Shown here in pieces: positions 2,653 through 25,058 of a stretch of DNA of 64,000 bases. The translations under genes and the position numbers were made by a program. Each line of letters starts with the position of its first letter. Position 1 is the stretch's first letter. Below the pieces are notes generated by a model, which was not told where the DNA came from, searched no databases, and was given only the letters and a program-made list of their open reading frames with translations. Origin of the DNA: Chitinispirillum alkaliphilum (GTDB lineage Bacteria; Fibrobacterota; Chitinivibrionia; Chitinivibrionales; Chitinispirillaceae); assembly GCA_001045525.1 (NCBI GenBank), contig LDWW01000004.1, positions 124,001-188,000 on the forward strand. Direction: 5' to 3'.

Positions 2653-3591
2653 TTAAACAAAGAGTAGTTTTCTGAATTTAACTGAGCCATAAATCAGTGA
2701 TGCCGTGATTACAAACGGTGCAAAAAACATACTTACCCATTCTTTAAAAAAATAGAAGAAACCAGAAGCAGCCCCGGTTCTACGATAAGTCAAAACTGAA
2801 ACGGCAGTCAGGATTAACAGAACACCCCAAACAACACACTCTCCAAAAACCAATACAAGTGATAATACATGTATAATCAACAATGATAACAATGTTCCTG
2901 AGAATGGGGATCTTAATTGTTTACGAAACATTTTCGGGTGTTTTTTATACAGCAAGGGATCAAACCTGCGATTGTGACAATTTTTTAGCAGGTCCCACCA
3001 CTCGCCTTTTCTGAATCTGTGCTGCACAACGATATCTTTACCAAATCCGATCTTCTCCCCCTTTTGCAACAGCGTAAAGGCAAGGTCCAAATCTTCTCTT
3101 TGTACTGTAAATCTTTCATCAAATCCACCCACAGAGAGGAACTTTTCTTTTCTATAAAAAATATTGTTTGTTCTGTAACCGGGTTTTTCGAGCCTTTTAT
3201 ACTGTTTAATAACTGAAGTAGCATCTACGGGGTGTTCAACGACAGTCTTTCCCTCAACACCACAGATTTCAGCCTTACTGATAAGATACTCATAACCTTT
3301 CTTTAGCCACTGTGTATCAACCACACAATCATCATCGACAAAAGCCACCACTTCATATTTGGAACACTCCACACCTTTGTTCCTTTTTCTGCTTATACTT
3401 TTGTCACTGAGAAATACCCATTTCACAAAACCAAATTCCTGTGCCATCATATCAACAGGGTAATCTGCTACGACAATCAATTCCACTGCGAAATCTGCGT
3501 TATTCCTTGCCGTTTGCAGAGAATGGATCAGATCCGGAATATAATGAGGTCTGTGTGATGAGACTATTACAGAAACACCTTTAACATTCAC
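2653..3591 (-). CDS. Family 2 glycosyltransferase with C-terminal membrane segments
   Basis: 312 residues. The GT-A N-terminus VSVIVSSHRPHYIPDLI is followed by the metal-binding acidic motif VDDDCVVD near residue 90 and a typical acceptor-domain EDLDLAFTLL near residue 167. Two or three hydrophobic stretches after about residue 230 should place it on the inner membrane. The start is a GTG at 3591. It is 18 bases downstream of another family 2 gene and belongs to the same glycosyltransferase run. The role is probably sugar transfer during exopolysaccharide repeat-unit assembly; the specificity is unknown. Confidence 0.86.
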   Translation of the reverse strand: MNVKGVSVIVSSHRPHYIPDLIHSLQTARNNADFAVELIVVADYPVDMMAQEFGFVKWVFLSDKSISRKRNKGVECSKYEVVAFVDDDCVVDTQWLKKGYEYLISKAEICGVEGKTVVEHPVDATSVIKQYKRLEKPGYRTNNIFYRKEKFLSVGGFDERFTVQREDLDLAFTLLQKGEKIGFGKDIVVQHRFRKGEWWDLLKNCHNRRFDPLLYKKHPKMFRKQLRSPFSGTLLSLLIIHVLSLVLVFGECVVWGVLLILTAVSVLTYRRTGAASGFFYFFKEWVSMFFAPFVITASLIYGSVKFRKLLFV

Positions 3592-3609
3592 ATTTAACCC
3601 ACTTTAAAT

Positions 3610-4545
3610 TTACTTTGACCAGTCTGGCTTTCCTTTTTGCGGTACATCTTGAACAGATTTATTCAGTAAAACTTCTGGCAGAAGAGTCCAGGCACATATC
3701 TGCTCGAAAACACTTATAAACAGAAGCATAATAGTTTGTCCGGGTTTCCTTAAAAAATCTGAAAACCTTCTCCTTCGCATGCAGTTCAAAGTATGACGAA
3801 CGAGAAATGAAATGTATGTACCTTTAAAATTAACAGCATTCCTGAAATTTTTATATTCACCAGGGTGTTTTGAAAAAAAATACTTTTCTGCTCTTACTAT
3901 CCCTCTCATTCTTTTTCTACTGTTCATAAGCATTCTAATCAATACGACATTTCTTGCCATATGATCAGCTTTCAGATCAGGAAGGAAGATGATATTCCCT
4001 TCCCTTAAAGCACGTACAGCAATCTCGTGATCCTCACAGAATGGGCCAAGATACTCAAATGTTTCATCGAAACAGCCTATTTTCATAAGCATATCTTTTC
4101 TGTATGCAATATGGCAGGTCAGAAACTGCCCCCCGCACAGATTTTCAACTTCTCTGTCCCATAATCCCTGCCCTGTTCCTGTCACTTTACCCTCAAAACC
4201 AATCACATCATCAGGGGCACTTTTGAGATGTTTTTTTAAAACCTTGTACCACCCCTTTTTCACCTCAACATCATCGTCCAGAAATAAAACCCAATTTCCA
4301 TTCGAGTGTCTTATGCCTATATTTCGTGCTACCGCCATTCCACGATTTTTTGAACATCGCACATACGACACACCAAGTTCAGCACATATATTTTTGTTAA
4401 GGTTTCTTTCAGCTTCACCTGATCCATCATCTATTACACATATCTTTACCTTATTATCTGTTTCTGATTTTAACATCCCAAGACACAGGCTCAAATAGTG
4501 AGGTCTGTTTCTTGTTGGGATAACGATCGAGACCAAAGGTGTCAT
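3610..4545 (-). CDS. Family 2 glycosyltransferase
   Basis: 311 residues with the GT-A start VSIVIPTRNRPHYLSLCLG, the nucleotide-sugar/metal motif FLDDDVEV near residue 90 and the catalytic-side CEDHEIAVRAL near residue 170. A hydrophobic patch (LLFISVFEQICAWTLLP) close to the C-terminus may associate with the membrane. The ATG at 4545 overlaps the stop of the upstream glycosyltransferase in an ATGA junction, so the two are translationally coupled. It is a probable exopolysaccharide repeat-unit transferase of unknown sugar specificity. Confidence 0.87.
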   Translation of the reverse strand: MTPLVSIVIPTRNRPHYLSLCLGMLKSETDNKVKICVIDDGSGEAERNLNKNICAELGVSYVRCSKNRGMAVARNIGIRHSNGNWVLFLDDDVEVKKGWYKVLKKHLKSAPDDVIGFEGKVTGTGQGLWDREVENLCGGQFLTCHIAYRKDMLMKIGCFDETFEYLGPFCEDHEIAVRALREGNIIFLPDLKADHMARNVVLIRMLMNSRKRMRGIVRAEKYFFSKHPGEYKNFRNAVNFKGTYISFLVRHTLNCMRRRRFSDFLRKPGQTIMLLFISVFEQICAWTLLPEVLLNKSVQDVPQKGKPDWSK

Positions 4546-5766: not shown

Positions 5767-7923
5767 TCAGTCTTTTTTTGTCTTATAATAATGATAGTAA
5801 TATTTATAATATCCGTAACTTGTATATCGATCTGAGAGGTTGATATCATTTAAAACAGTTCCATATATTTTTACTCCGATATTTTTCAATGAATTCATAG
5901 CCCGATATGCTATATCCCGATCAGTATGATGAGACTTAATAACCATGAGTAGTCCGTCAACTTTTGTTCCAAGCAGGGCAGCATCGGTAACTGCAATAAT
6001 TGGCGGAGTATCAAAAAATATCATATCAAAGCGGGCTTTAAGGTCATCGATAATCTGAACCATCTTTTGTGAACCTACCAGCTCTGCGGGGTTAGGGGTG
6101 AAAATACCAGCAGATATCAAATACAGGTTTTCTCTCCCTGTAGGTCTTATGATTTTTTCATAATCGGGATTATCGATAAACAGTTCACTGAATCCAGGTT
6201 CCCGTTTCATTCCAAAAATATGATGCTGAACCGGTCTTCGCAAATCAGCATCCACAAGAAGTATTTTCTTTCCCATTTGCGCATAAGCCATAGCCAGGTT
6301 TGATACGGTCAGTGATTTACCTTCTCCTGGACCAGCGGAGGTGAGCAGCACAGTCTGAACCGGATTGTCGGGGCTGACAAAAGACAAATTCGTTCTAAGT
6401 GATCTGTAAGCTTCAGTAATAACAGAATCATCACCGGTAAACGTAAAAACCTGCCTTGGGTACTGGTTTACTGTGAGCTTATCTTTCTTTTTGGACGAAA
6501 ACCTTCGAACTTCTATATCCTTCTTTTTATTGCACACGATATGCGGGATAGTCCCCAATACAGACAGCCTTAGATATTTTTCCACATCTTCATTTGTCTT
6601 AATTGTCGTATCGTTGTATTCTGCGAGAAAAGCCAGTGAAATCCCTAAACCCAGACCTAAAAGAATTCCAAGTGTATAATAACCAGCTTCGTTTTTTGGC
6701 ATTGGAGCCTGAGGCATTTCAGGCATATCCACTATTTTAAGTCCCATGCCACTGGAGCGACTTTTTATACGCTGTTCCTCGGCTTTACTGAGGAGTATAT
6801 TATAAATATTCTCATAGACTTCTCTTGACCTCTGTAGCCGAATTAGCTCAAGAGATTCGCTAAGCATGTGAGGATTGCCCTGTTTGTAAGTCTGAATAGC
6901 GTTTTCGTAGGAATCCAATCTCCTTTTGAACAACTCCAATTCAGCTTCCTTATTGATTACAGATTTGCGCAATTCCTGCCACTGGCGCATGACAGCAGGA
7001 TCTACGGAAGATGTTTGTCTCTGAAACTGCAAAAGCTGACGTTCTGTATCCTTGATTTCTCTGTCTATATTTGACAGCCCAGAAAACCTTATGCCCAGAT
7101 TTTCAAGGCGCATCCGCTCCGTTTCCAACTCTCTGAGGCGAGATCTGAGACGAAGGAATTCAGGTGAACGCTGCCTGTCCGGGGTGATCTTATTCTCAAG
7201 GTTTGCAAGCTGGTTTCTTTCCGCTTCCAGATCTGCTTCCTTAAGCCCTAAATTCGCCAGACTTGACCCATATGCTTCCTGCAGAGTTTTTAGTCCAGGG
7301 GTCGTGCCGTCCTGGATCTGCCCGGTTCTGTCCTTAAACTTCCTGTATTCGTATTCCGCTTCCTCAAGATTGTCTCTTATCAGCCCTAGTTGATTTTCAA
7401 TTTCTTTCAGCGCCCTTCTGGACTCTTCGCTTTCAACTTCCTGGCATCTGTCCCTTAAAAGCTCAGTGCCTATACCCGCAATCATATAGGCCATCTCTTT
7501 TGTTTTACCCCTTGCGTTAAGTCTTAAAAAGGAAGAATAAGGGGTTCTTCTTAAAGATATGTTTGAGTGTATATATCCTCTTATCTGATCTCTGGAATAT
7601 TCGGGGAAAACTTCACTGAAAATTTCCACACCTATACTGTCAAGCAACATTTCCAAAAAAGATCTGCTGTTAAGAATCCCCTCATAAAAACTCAGGGGCC
7701 TAACATTGGTCTGCATCAACGGGTTTACAGATACACCCTGATCCTCTATAACTACCGTAGAATAAGCCTCGAATACATCCTCAATAGAATCCACATAGAA
7801 ATAGGTAGAAGCGGCCACAGAAATGAAGGCAAAGAATATGATTAACCTCCGGCGCATCATGATTGCCAGATAATCTTTAAGAGCAGGTCTGCTTGAGATC
7901 AGTGTTTCATTTATTCCATTCAT
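5767..7923 (-). CDS. Polysaccharide co-polymerase / bacterial tyrosine autokinase (Wzc-like)
   Basis: 718 residues. An N-terminal Wzz-type part has a membrane segment near residues 30-48, a long periplasmic coiled coil (about 180-400), and a second membrane segment near 430-450. The cytoplasmic kinase follows, with Walker A AGPGEGKS starting at residue 530, Walker A' ILLVDADLRRP and Walker B MIFFDTPP. The C-terminal tail contains nine tyrosines in about 14 residues, the usual autophosphorylation cluster of BY-kinases. In this family the protein sets chain length and gates export together with the outer-membrane Wza protein, whose gene lies directly upstream (1-base gap). This is a complete, ordinary example. 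Confidence 0.95.
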   Translation of the reverse strand: MNGINETLISSRPALKDYLAIMMRRRLIIFFAFISVAASTYFYVDSIEDVFEAYSTVVIEDQGVSVNPLMQTNVRPLSFYEGILNSRSFLEMLLDSIGVEIFSEVFPEYSRDQIRGYIHSNISLRRTPYSSFLRLNARGKTKEMAYMIAGIGTELLRDRCQEVESEESRRALKEIENQLGLIRDNLEEAEYEYRKFKDRTGQIQDGTTPGLKTLQEAYGSSLANLGLKEADLEAERNQLANLENKITPDRQRSPEFLRLRSRLRELETERMRLENLGIRFSGLSNIDREIKDTERQLLQFQRQTSSVDPAVMRQWQELRKSVINKEAELELFKRRLDSYENAIQTYKQGNPHMLSESLELIRLQRSREVYENIYNILLSKAEEQRIKSRSSGMGLKIVDMPEMPQAPMPKNEAGYYTLGILLGLGLGISLAFLAEYNDTTIKTNEDVEKYLRLSVLGTIPHIVCNKKKDIEVRRFSSKKKDKLTVNQYPRQVFTFTGDDSVITEAYRSLRTNLSFVSPDNPVQTVLLTSAGPGEGKSLTVSNLAMAYAQMGKKILLVDADLRRPVQHHIFGMKREPGFSELFIDNPDYEKIIRPTGRENLYLISAGIFTPNPAELVGSQKMVQIIDDLKARFDMIFFDTPPIIAVTDAALLGTKVDGLLMVIKSHHTDRDIAYRAMNSLKNIGVKIYGTVLNDINLSDRYTSYGYYKYYYHYYKTKKD

Positions 7924-21519: not shown

Positions 21520-21541
21520 ATGAAACTGATTGAAAATCCTT

Positions 21542-21615
21542 GCGGCCATAGCTCAATTGGATAGAGCATCTGACTACGGATCAGAAGGTTTGGGGTTCGA
21601 CTCCCTATGGCCGTG
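21542..21615 (+). tRNA. trnR: tRNA-Arg (anticodon ACG)
   Basis: A full cloverleaf can be folded by hand. The 7-bp acceptor stem (GCGGCCA with TGGCCGT, first pair G-U) is followed by a D arm with GCTC/GAGC. The 5-bp anticodon stem TCTGA/TCAGA encloses the loop CTACGGA. A 5-base variable loop and a T arm with TTCGACT complete it. The anticodon ACG reads CGN arginine codons after deamination to inosine. The 3' CCA is not encoded. A terminator follows at once. Confidence 0.95.
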
Positions 21616-21627
21616 TTTAAGATGAAA

Positions 21628-21670: not shown

Positions 21671-21820
21671 TAGGCTTCTTCAACAATTTTTTTTCCTGCC
21701 AAATACCTACTAAATAATTGTGGCCAAAAGCGTGGAATGCACAGATAGTGTTATTTTAACTAAGAGCATAGATAATGAGGTGTTTTACTTTTTTGTCCAA
21801 AAAACGCAATGGGAGCGGTT

Positions 21821-22225
21821 TTACTCGGGGATAAATCTCAATGTCACATCCTGGAGATCAAAACCCTCAATCAATTCCGCATTACTCAGAAATTGAACGA
21901 ATATTCTCCTGGCATCCTCAAGTATTAGCATTTGGCTTTGCAGAATATAAATCGGCCCTACCCGACAGTTAATATATGCACTATCTTCTTTTCGCGGATA
22001 ATCACCCATAACGTAGTGCCTGAAACCGTTCTGTCTATATTGTCGTGCCTCTACAGTAAGCCTGAGAGGTGCTCCTGCAACCTGAACGTAGCTTCCGGTA
22101 AGGAGCTCTGTGAGTGAAAAAAAGCAGCGCCTTTTGGGGTGAAGTGTATTCAGAAGCGTAAGCATTTCTTCTGTTTCGGGATTTTCTATGGGAGATATGT
22201 TATCTCCTTCGAATCGAAAACTCAT
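21821..22225 (-). CDS. Unknown protein in the radical SAM cassette
   Basis: 134 residues, soluble, no signal peptide. Visible features are an N-terminal polar segment, a central SLTELLTGSYVQVAGAPLRL and a C-terminal DLQDVTLRFIP strand. I do not recognise the family. An ATG also exists four codons upstream, but the ATG at 22225 has GGAGG about 5 bases before it. It follows the radical SAM gene by 36 bases on the same strand, so it is probably the third gene of that operon. A partner, recognition or immunity-type role is possible but only guessed. Confidence 0.7.
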   Translation of the reverse strand: MSFRFEGDNISPIENPETEEMLTLLNTLHPKRRCFFSLTELLTGSYVQVAGAPLRLTVEARQYRQNGFRHYVMGDYPRKEDSAYINCRVGPIYILQSQMLILEDARRIFVQFLSNAELIEGFDLQDVTLRFIPE

Positions 22226-22261
22226 ATTTCCCTCCATTGACTATAGAGTTGAGCTGCGTTT

Positions 22262-23263
22262 TTATATCCAACAATTACTATCTTTAGTCTTATAATCTCC
22301 GCTTGTTGCGTATGCCAGACATTTCAATCCACCATTACAACTTGTTTTGTAATAGCAATCAAAACAGTTACTGTCCAAGTTGTTTATATCGCGAATATCC
22401 TCAAGTATTTCCGAGTTTTCATATAACTCATTTAGATTATCAGATAACAGATTACCTACTTTGATCGGAAGTCTTCTGCAGGGCACTAAATCACCATTTG
22501 AAAGAATGGCTAACAGTGAAACACCTGCAGAACAACTATAGGGTCGCCCCCCACACAACAGAAACTGTAAAGCTCTTTCTGCCAGAATTTCTGTTTCAGA
22601 AAATATGAAATACTTATCCTTCAGTTTTTCCTTATTAATCAGATCACAAAGTGTTTTGAATTGCTTCGTGGTCATTTGAAGATTATCTGATTTTCCATTT
22701 GGCAGATATCGGTCTGTCCATATCTTAAATGCTCTGTATCTTCGGGCAATCTTTACAACATGTGGATAATCCATAAAATTTTCTGAGTTCGCGGTAAAAG
22801 AAATGACTGTTGGTATACTCAGTTTGCGGTAAACTTTTAGCGATTCAATAATCTTTTTATAACTCCCCATTCCTCTAATTGAATCATTTCTCTCTCTTTT
22901 TCCTTCTAAGCTAATCTGAACAAAATCAGGTCGGTAATTCTCCAGTTGGTTAAGTACACTTTTTGAAGAAATAAATCCGTTTGAGAGTATTCCAAAAGAA
23001 AACATTTTTGTTTCCCGTACTTTTCTAATCAGATCTACTATATCGGTTCTTAAAAAAGGCTCTCCTCCTGTAAGATTAATATGTGCGTGTGATATTCCTT
23101 TTGTTTTGACAAACATCTGTAGTTGAACTAAAATTTGCTCAAAGTCGTGAAAAGCTAATCCATTGTAATTATAATCTCTTTGATAGCAATGCCTGCATCT
23201 CAAATTACAGTTATCTGTTATATGCCACTGAAAAACTATCGTGTTAGATGGAGCTATATTCAA
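22262..23263 (-). CDS. Radical SAM/SPASM peptide-modifying enzyme
   Basis: 333 residues. The N-terminus carries the radical SAM cluster motif C-x3-C-x2-C (Cys19, Cys23, Cys26 in CNLRCRHC) and the downstream NLTGGEPFLR, which binds the SAM amino group. The C-terminal third is a Cys-rich SPASM region (SNGDLVPCRR, then CFDCYYKTSC, CNGGLKC and a final Cys) that should hold auxiliary Fe-S clusters. Enzymes of this plan install thioether or C-C crosslinks in ribosomal peptides. The only available start is a TTG two bases after the stop of the Gly-Gly-Cys membrane protein, because an in-frame TGA lies just upstream. Translation therefore seems tied to that gene, and its Cys-rich tail is the obvious substrate candidate. 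Confidence 0.9.
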   Translation of the reverse strand: MNIAPSNTIVFQWHITDNCNLRCRHCYQRDYNYNGLAFHDFEQILVQLQMFVKTKGISHAHINLTGGEPFLRTDIVDLIRKVRETKMFSFGILSNGFISSKSVLNQLENYRPDFVQISLEGKRERNDSIRGMGSYKKIIESLKVYRKLSIPTVISFTANSENFMDYPHVVKIARRYRAFKIWTDRYLPNGKSDNLQMTTKQFKTLCDLINKEKLKDKYFIFSETEILAERALQFLLCGGRPYSCSAGVSLLAILSNGDLVPCRRLPIKVGNLLSDNLNELYENSEILEDIRDINNLDSNCFDCYYKTSCNGGLKCLAYATSGDYKTKDSNCWI

Positions 23264-23265
23264 AA

Positions 23266-24228
23266 TTAATCACAACCCCCACATCCTCCCCCACATCCCC
23301 CACAGCCCCCACAGCCTCCACAGCCTCCACAGCCTCCACAGCCTCCACAGCCTCCACAGCCTCCACAGCCCCCTTCACCGCCGCCTCCACCGCGGACAGT
23401 CCCACAGCCCATTGTAGAACCGGGACGGTTATCAAGAAGTGCTGTACTTTCCAATAACTCGCCAAATTGGGTGTCAATAAAAGAATTTATTCCAAATATT
23501 GCAATTCCGTATAAAAGATTATCATCCACAAGCAAATCAGCAGTTTCGTCTGAAGTTTTCAACCATTCAAATCTTTGGGCTGTTCTTTGTAACAGCATTT
23601 TTCCAAGTGCAGTTATAACACCTGGTCTGGCAACTCTGTATAGAATGACAGTTGTCAGAATTAGCAACAAAAACAGATATCCACTTGGTTTATCTCGAAC
23701 TAAACCAAAATAAAGTTTAGTTCCCCCAATTCCCCAAAGGATCACAAGACCCCAAAAGAAACCTTTCCAATGTTGATTTATTTGTGCTGAATCTGGAATC
23801 AGATGTAGTTCTTCTAATCTGGCTTTATTAGGCCGAATAATTTTTTTTATACTATCAATAGAATAAGTTAGGTATAGATCCCTGTATTTGATAGGCTTTT
23901 TAATGTAGTTATAGATTGCTGTTTCAAGAGTGTTAAATTTCGAAATATCAGTTTGCTTTTGCTCAAGAACAATCGCATTTTTTTTAATCGAAATATCAAC
24001 AGCTTTTTGACGCCATAAATTGAAAACACTCATAACAATTGCACCGTATACTCCACTTTTTAGAATCGCAATATCCAGTGGTTCTAATTTGGTTGGTTCA
24101 GGAATTTCAAAATCAGATGTACAATCACAGGGGACATAATGCCTAACATTTAATAACACAACAATTGCATACAGTGTGAACAAAAACATAAACTGAGAGC
24201 CTGGAATACTTACCAGATAATCGATCAT
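23266..24228 (-). CDS. TIGR04222-like membrane protein with (Gly-Gly-Cys)n tail
   Basis: 320 residues. The N-terminus (MIDYLVSIPGSQFMFLFTLY, a membrane helix) and a following LEPLDIAILKSGVYGAIV match, from memory, the TIGR04222 type of membrane protein known for low-complexity Cys/Gly tails. Two further helices lie near residues 155-195. After a soluble stretch the last 35 residues consist of eleven Cys spaced by Gly-Gly (one spacing is three Gly), ending in Asp. The frame is open 17 codons further, but the ATG at 24228 has GAGGAGG 5 bases before it. The tail is the likely substrate of the radical SAM enzyme encoded next. Its function after modification is unknown. Confidence 0.87.
   Translation of the reverse strand: MIDYLVSIPGSQFMFLFTLYAIVVLLNVRHYVPCDCTSDFEIPEPTKLEPLDIAILKSGVYGAIVMSVFNLWRQKAVDISIKKNAIVLEQKQTDISKFNTLETAIYNYIKKPIKYRDLYLTYSIDSIKKIIRPNKARLEELHLIPDSAQINQHWKGFFWGLVILWGIGGTKLYFGLVRDKPSGYLFLLLILTTVILYRVARPGVITALGKMLLQRTAQRFEWLKTSDETADLLVDDNLLYGIAIFGINSFIDTQFGELLESTALLDNRPGSTMGCGTVRGGGGGEGGCGGCGGCGGCGGCGGCGGCGGCGGCGGGCGGCD
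23272..23373. repeat. 9-bp tandem repeat encoding the Gly-Gly-Cys tail
   Basis: Six perfect copies of a 9-base unit (plus-strand ACAGCCTCC) occupy 23311-23364. Diverged units extend this to 23272-23373, covering eleven Cys codons. On the coding strand each perfect unit contains GGAGG. Copy number can change by slippage without breaking the frame. Confidence 0.9.
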
Positions 24229-25058
24229 ATCATCCTCCTCAAGTTCAACACTAATGTTGCGCATACCTGATATGGTCAAATACTATCAGGTTAATATTTT
24301 TTATCAATGTTTCACAGTGGACCTGAACCAAAATTTTTTTCAAATAAAAAAAACTCCCTAAGTTCAGATACAGCAAATGAGAAAAAGTATTTGGAGAGAG
24401 TAGATGACACCCGAAAAGCTATCAAGTCAAGATATATTCTGATATATAGAAATATGGTAAAAAGTGTAATAGGAAATTCATGCACGCCACCATTGGCCGG
24501 GAATAATACTGCATGTTTCTTATCACAACAAATTAGACAAAACACACATTTCCTAATATGTGAAATAAATTTGATGTACTTCTTGCAACCAAGAATCAAT
24601 ATACTGCTAATTGATCTCCGGGAGCAAGCTATTTGAGCGTATTTATGTAGGAGTAGCTCAACTTCTGTTCTTCAACAAACCCAAGAGAACTTGCATCAGT
24701 TAATGTGTGTCGGACAATATTTCACCCGATATTGGTCCCTATTTGGTAAGCAAATCAATTTCATCTCCTATGGCTCCCGGAAGTACAGTAACCAAACCCC
24801 CTTCGATTGTCAAAACCCGCTGTAGTAGACTCAAAATTGAGAACCATAAATTTCAGAACCAAAGCAACCCAATTCCTTAGCCCAGTTCACCCTGCACGAC
24901 ATGAAGAAGCAGACTCTTTACGCGCTTCTCCCAGCTATTTTGGGAGAATTGTGTTCAGTCTTTAGTACTGGCCTTACAGGACAAAAGAAGCGATGAGTAT
25001 TTTACTGATAGCAATTTGATACTCTGCAGGGCGGCTTTTCCATCGATTCTGCCGGTTC
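24229..25058. other. Gene-poor interval upstream of the radical SAM cassette
   Basis: I find no convincing gene in these 830 bases. Short open frames on both strands lack ribosome sites and protein-like composition. The interval holds one copy of the dispersed intergenic repeat (24564-24672) and a small 8-bp hairpin near 24930-24955 (TTCTCCCA / TGGGAGAA). Confidence 0.6.
24564..24672 (+). repeat. Dispersed intergenic repeat, copy A
   Basis: It contains the shared core AATCAATATACTGCTAATTG, then CTCCGGGAGCAAGCTATTTG, and aligns by eye with the copies at 26946, 28869 and 32990. It lies 336 bases upstream of the minus-strand Gly-Gly-Cys gene. Confidence 0.6.

Follow-up and report, generated by a model that had tools for sequence, protein, structure and literature searches.

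Cys-tailed TIGR04222 proteins often adjoin MNIO genes and a subset of them are likely MNIO substrates, while MNIO is missing from about a third of TIGR04222-bearing genomes (Antoine et al. 2025, PMC12452194). MNIO enzymes acting with a partner protein yield copper-binding 5-thiooxazoles (PMC12668002), and a radical SAM/SPASM enzyme, SbtM, removes four hydrogens to form a thiooxazole (PMC11002830). The locus analyzed here lies in a 64,000-nucleotide stretch of the Chitinispirillum alkaliphilum genome (the window; genome G000) and pairs a Cys-tailed TIGR04222 gene with a radical SAM/SPASM gene. An earlier note on this DNA had called the arrangement a system not known to it from earlier descriptions. 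The general idea is in fact in print, modification by MNIO enzymes having been proposed for Cys-tailed TIGR04222 proteins (PMC12452194), and to that extent the note was not quite right; the radical SAM version of Cys-tailed TIGR04222 modification we did not find reported, and in the main text of PMC12452194 radical SAM appears only in the reference list and in a table footnote on ChrH, not as a partner.

Organization of the locus

All genes of the locus are on the minus strand. The TIGR04222 gene (23266..24228) encodes a 320-aa membrane protein, the putative substrate, and starts at an ATG at 24228 behind a GAGGAGG Shine-Dalgarno sequence, the same place at which its homologues begin; the mechanically derived ORF reaches 24279, beyond this real start. 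The protein scores 88.5 bits against the TIGR04222 profile (curated cut-off 43), which places it in the family, and 11 of its 14 Cys lie within the last 45 residues, so the Cys-rich tail described in the earlier note is real. This Gly-Gly-Cys tail (23269..23400) ends in -GGCD and is encoded by a minisatellite in which a 9-bp unit recurs 8.9 times (97% match). Elsewhere in the window, whatever the frame, 35 consecutive residues hold at most 7 Cys, so the tail is not a product of chance.

The radical SAM/SPASM gene (22262..23263, 333 aa) starts at a TTG 2 bases downstream of the TIGR04222 TAA. Its product, a putative maturase, matches Radical_SAM (PF04055, 76.8 bits) and SPASM (PF13186, 29.8 bits), both above the Pfam cut-offs, and carries the CxxxCxxC motif together with a CxGGLKC signature at its SPASM end. 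A third gene (21821..22225, 134 aa) follows 36 bases on; these positions and spacings are as the earlier note gave them. The third gene is an orphan: searches of Pfam, NCBIfam, PHROGs and PADLOC gave no match, plasmid, phage and viral-contig sequences contained no relative, and the PDB yielded nothing beyond chance level.

Among 168 genomes of the host's own phylum, one other (G004, same family but another genus) holds a TIGR04222 protein above the cut-off, and there all three genes recur in an identical arrangement. A blastn comparison of the window with the G004 stretch gave a single common block of 2725 columns at 82% identity, which delimits a cassette (21781..24490) with differing flanks. 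Protein identities are 71–72% for the TIGR04222 protein and 84% for both the enzyme and the orphan, and dN/dS values of 0.42 (TIGR04222 core), 0.23 (enzyme) and 0.20 (orphan) indicate purifying selection on all three genes. The orphan is thus a real gene; it is confined to these two genomes within the phylum and occurs in two of the five genomes that carry the TIGR04222-Cys/SPASM pair, which puts it outside the conserved core as a lineage-specific accessory of the cassette.

The upstream region (24280..24335), delimited by alignment with that of G004, contains a sigma-70-like promoter, TTGATA-16-TAGTAT, which is a consensus match only, of a kind no commoner here than in shuffled sequence. It also contains GGTTCAGGTCCACTGT (24300–24335), identical in G004 and not repeated within the window, a possible regulator site. 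A tRNA-Arg gene (21541–21616) lies about 165 bases past the end of the homology block; no tRNA is present on the 19-kb G004 stretch, so insertion at a tRNA is unsupported as a general rule.

Hydropathy gives the TIGR04222 protein and its homologues the order helix 1, a Lys/Arg-rich domain of about 110–150 residues, one or two helices, then Lys/Arg, and the positive-inside rule places the Lys/Arg-rich domain in the cytoplasm. Ahead of the tail, a fourth hydrophobic helix stands out in the homologue from G180, a Bacillota genome, and is weaker elsewhere, including the window protein. With three helices only, the tail would be in the cytoplasm with the enzyme; with a fourth, C-terminal helix spanning the membrane it would be outside, as Antoine et al. 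predict (PMC12452194). Single-sequence AlphaFold2 models (pLDDT 33 and 39) were too poor for fold comparison.

Conservation of the pair and its enzyme clade

We searched for TIGR04222 in 25 genomes holding relatives of the enzyme, in the host's own phylum, and in samples, rather than a full survey, of the phyla to which a Bacillota, a Desulfobacteraceae, a Chloroflexota and a Prolixibacteraceae genome belong. Six genomes had a Cys-tailed TIGR04222 protein that was complete, short and above the cut-off. Scores outside the window were 97.7 bits in G004, 98.8–111.8 bits in G180, G634 and G946, and 107.6 bits in G1021. A SPASM gene lies directly downstream in five of the six (G000, G004, G180, G634 and G1021), with frames that overlap or stand 2 bases apart; outside Chloroflexota, every complete Cys-tailed TIGR04222 gene found (5/5) has an adjoining SPASM gene. 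G634 and G1021 represent one class in the phylum of the Desulfobacteraceae genome. Since the 168 genomes of the host's phylum exclude the genomes of the other loci, the six genomes represent three phyla or more. The earlier note had made conserved adjacency in other genomes the test of its reading, and the pair is indeed conserved, in five genomes from three phyla. The lack of an adjacent peptidase or exporter, which that note pointed out, also holds and extends to all five radical SAM loci, whose ORF lists show no peptidase or transporter as part of the unit and hence none of the neighbouring genes that would accompany leader removal or export of a RiPP.

Several other matches were discarded. 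Weak hits in the host's phylum (L003–L005) fell under the cut-off and, from the surrounding ORFs, lie in unrelated genes; Chloroflexota matches of 500–680 aa were set aside as DUF2207-type, judging by their length and by L096 and G852, the two that were inspected; two further matches in G946 have no Cys tail. In G180, a run of arsenic-resistance-like genes, identified by eye as ArsR, arsenate reductase, ArsD, ArsA and Acr3-like, lies about 2.7 kb from the pair (L094:12601-16599).

The sixth genome, G946 from the phylum Chloroflexota, is the sole MNIO-linked case found here: an MNIO gene (PF05114, 217.6 bits) occupies the position of the SPASM gene. The closest NCBIfam model for this MNIO is BufB, at 177 bits, below its cut-off. 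In the C. alkaliphilum genome, the one examined in this respect, there is no MNIO (PF05114), and thus no adjacent MNIO of the kind that marks a bufferin-type system. By alignment, the GGCGGCGG region is common to the radical SAM-linked tails and the MNIO-linked tail of G946, whereas the final residue is Asp in all five radical SAM-linked tails and not in the MNIO-linked one. Tail length differs between G000 and G004.

The five TIGR04222-linked enzymes form one clade (support 100/97) in a tree of 49 rows, comprising these five, 32 SPASM relatives and 12 SbtM. The core Cys of CxxxCxxC are invariant in an alignment of four enzymes, and the SPASM spacing of the clade, CX2CX5CX5C, is unusual compared with the CRGC-type ending of others. 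CxGGLKC occurs in 5/5 linked enzymes and in 0/35 others checked (the 32 SPASM relatives and three SbtM), and the SPASM ends of the nine further SbtM read CGGC or CRGC; the signature therefore offers a handle for finding this enzyme class. Beyond its close G004 counterpart, the window enzyme is 41% identical to the G634 enzyme and 37% to the G180 enzyme. It is at most 33% identical to the best 80 loci in a scan of 85,000 genomes, a scan built on two peptide patterns only that missed G180's own TIGR04222-linked enzyme. The viral contigs searched yielded distant SPASM enzymes only and no TIGR04222 relative. The earlier note had coupled enzyme and tail, and this is borne out: the two occur together in three phyla, and the SPASM enzymes concerned all belong to one specific clade.

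Proposed modification of the tail

Starting from the conserved pair, the dedicated clade, the common terminus and the enzyme swap, all evident at the sequence level, we propose that the two genes form a unit and that the radical SAM/SPASM enzyme, dedicated to this task, would modify the C-terminal Cys-Gly tail of the TIGR04222 protein in place. The modified tail would stay attached to the membrane through that protein, in line with the earlier note's remark that the presumed substrate remains part of a membrane protein. The SPASM enzyme would correspond to the MNIO enzymes, which depend on iron and oxygen and take this position beside other TIGR04222 proteins, but would work without oxygen, its hosts being assumed to live anaerobically. 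Its most likely product would be a heterocycle of the 5-thiooxazole type, formed at some Cys by loss of 4 H each. The membrane-tethered tail could then bind copper or another soft metal. We assign this reading as a whole, with both the independence from oxygen and the thiooxazole product, a probability of roughly 0.45.

Its parts differ in strength. That the Cys tail is the substrate of the SPASM enzyme is very probable. Thiooxazole chemistry on the tail comes close to an even chance: to our knowledge, thiooxazole formation is the one chemistry common to an MNIO and a SPASM enzyme acting on Cys, and because both enzyme types occupy the same place here, we infer it for the tail. MNIO products nevertheless include others besides thiooxazole. 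A role in metal binding is suggested more tentatively; the conserved core holds no metal gene. Equally tentative is the broader proposal that MNIO and the new radical SAM/SPASM clade, two unrelated enzyme families, both equip this membrane-protein tail with one and the same thiooxazole metal ligand, the latter without oxygen; the result would be a membrane-tethered metallophore produced by way of non-homologous enzyme replacement.

The earlier note had envisaged a tail that is thioether-crosslinked or assembled into a metal or Fe-S site, and such a site would fit either chemistry, thiooxazole or thioether. Crosslinking would join Cys sulfur to the alpha-carbons of neighbouring Gly, as in sactipeptides or ranthipeptides, and give a compact, cyclised, membrane-anchored tail. 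SPASM peptide maturases commonly make thioethers, PapB (112.8 bits) and StsB (80.4 bits) match the window enzyme, and the solved structures nearest to it in sequence include 5wgg and SkfB 6efn, both of thioether-forming enzymes. The PapB and StsB models, however, score below those of SbtM and ACGX, and no sactipeptide or ranthipeptide family reached its curated cut-off on the window enzyme among the matches listed. In known sactipeptides Gly seldom serves as the acceptor, and a similar tail adjoins an MNIO in the same position, a family from which we know of no sacti-type thioethers. Given that MNIO and the thiooxazole precedent of SbtM, we do not favour crosslinking by thioethers and regard it, though possible, as rather unlikely.

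We consider two further explanations improbable. The tail might go unmodified, its Cys repeats binding metal as thiolates like metallothionein or forming a neutral repeat, with the SPASM enzyme directed at another target. Such a tail would accord with the existence of Gly/Ser-rich tails without Cys among the related DUF2207 proteins, with the capacity of a 9-bp minisatellite to expand neutrally, and with the unequal lengths in G000 and G004; yet in three phyla the gene for the Cys tail is accompanied by a SPASM enzyme of one particular clade, the radical SAM-linked tails preserve the GGCGGCGG region and a final Asp, and the enzyme itself is constrained (dN/dS 0.23). The enzyme might instead carry out a different radical reaction on the tail, such as one at the C-terminal Asp or an epimerisation. 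The Asp that ends 5/5 radical SAM-linked tails and not the MNIO-linked one, and the clade's unusual CX2CX5CX5C spacing, point in that direction, but no characterised SPASM family of such a kind is close, and the repeated Cys are the more obvious target.

With one substrate family and two non-homologous enzymes that alternate in the neighbouring gene position, the fate of TIGR04222 tails becomes directly testable. Should both enzymes give the same heterocycle, this would be a case of non-homologous replacement in post-translational chemistry and would extend thiooxazole metallophores to whole membrane proteins.

Comparison with known systems

In sequence, the TIGR04222 domain is remotely akin to DUF2207_C: PF20990 matches the G180 homologue at E=1.7e-7 and the G004 homologue at E=4e-4, both under the curated cut-off. 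Gly-rich tails are common to DUF2207 (PF09972/PF20990) and TIGR04222 proteins, but DUF2207 proteins have an extra N-terminal domain and the examples inspected end in GGGGW/SW without Cys, unlike the window protein.

Among the enzyme families in NCBIfam, SbtM (TIGR04082) scores highest, at 156.6 bits with the window enzyme and 145.8 bits with the G180 enzyme; the ACGX, TIGR04053, NirJ and AhbD models score nearly as high. The window enzyme is not an SbtM: its score is well below the cut-off of 350, it covers only profile positions 198–501, lacking the N-terminal ~197 positions, and it falls in a clade separate from the 12 SbtM. In the SbtA/SbtM system (TIGR04081/TIGR04082), the substrate has a hydrophobic N-terminus and repeated Cys/Sec-Gly-Gly, resembling an anchored -Cys-Gly-Gly- tail, whereas the window substrate is a 320-aa multi-helix TIGR04222 protein whose tail has no Sec codon. 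Beside SbtM genes at L137, L138, L140 and L141 we observed SbtA-like Sec peptides with hydrophobic N-termini, several with a lipobox-like Cys, and repeats of S-Sec-Gly-Gly or S-Sec-Ser-Gly.

ACGX (TIGR04340) is the second-best match of the window enzyme and the best match of the G634 enzyme; the window enzyme was rejected as a member (147.3 bits vs cut-off 400; separate in the tree). The ACGX system is named for a Cys-Gly motif, and the SPASM end of a true member, in L087, is CRGC rather than CxGGLKC. In L087 (uncultured Clostridiales RUG363), that enzyme (5929-7017, 500.9 bits vs cut-off 400) lies two genes downstream of a TPM-domain-like protein (3438-4388; E=5e-4, just under the cut-off) ending in (Ser-Ser-Cys)n. 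The closest relative of the window enzyme without a TIGR04222 partner, in a Desulfobacteraceae genome (L011:5977-7525), is followed by a 93-aa PqqD-like protein and a 54-aa peptide ending KPLKITCRQCSSCHGCR, and this cluster looks like one for peptide maturation.

The MNIO-TIGR04222 system shares with the window locus the substrate family, a Cys/Gly/Ser-rich C-terminus, an adjoining modification gene and, in G946, the GGCGGCGG end. It differs in the enzyme, which is an MNIO there and a radical SAM/SPASM enzyme here.
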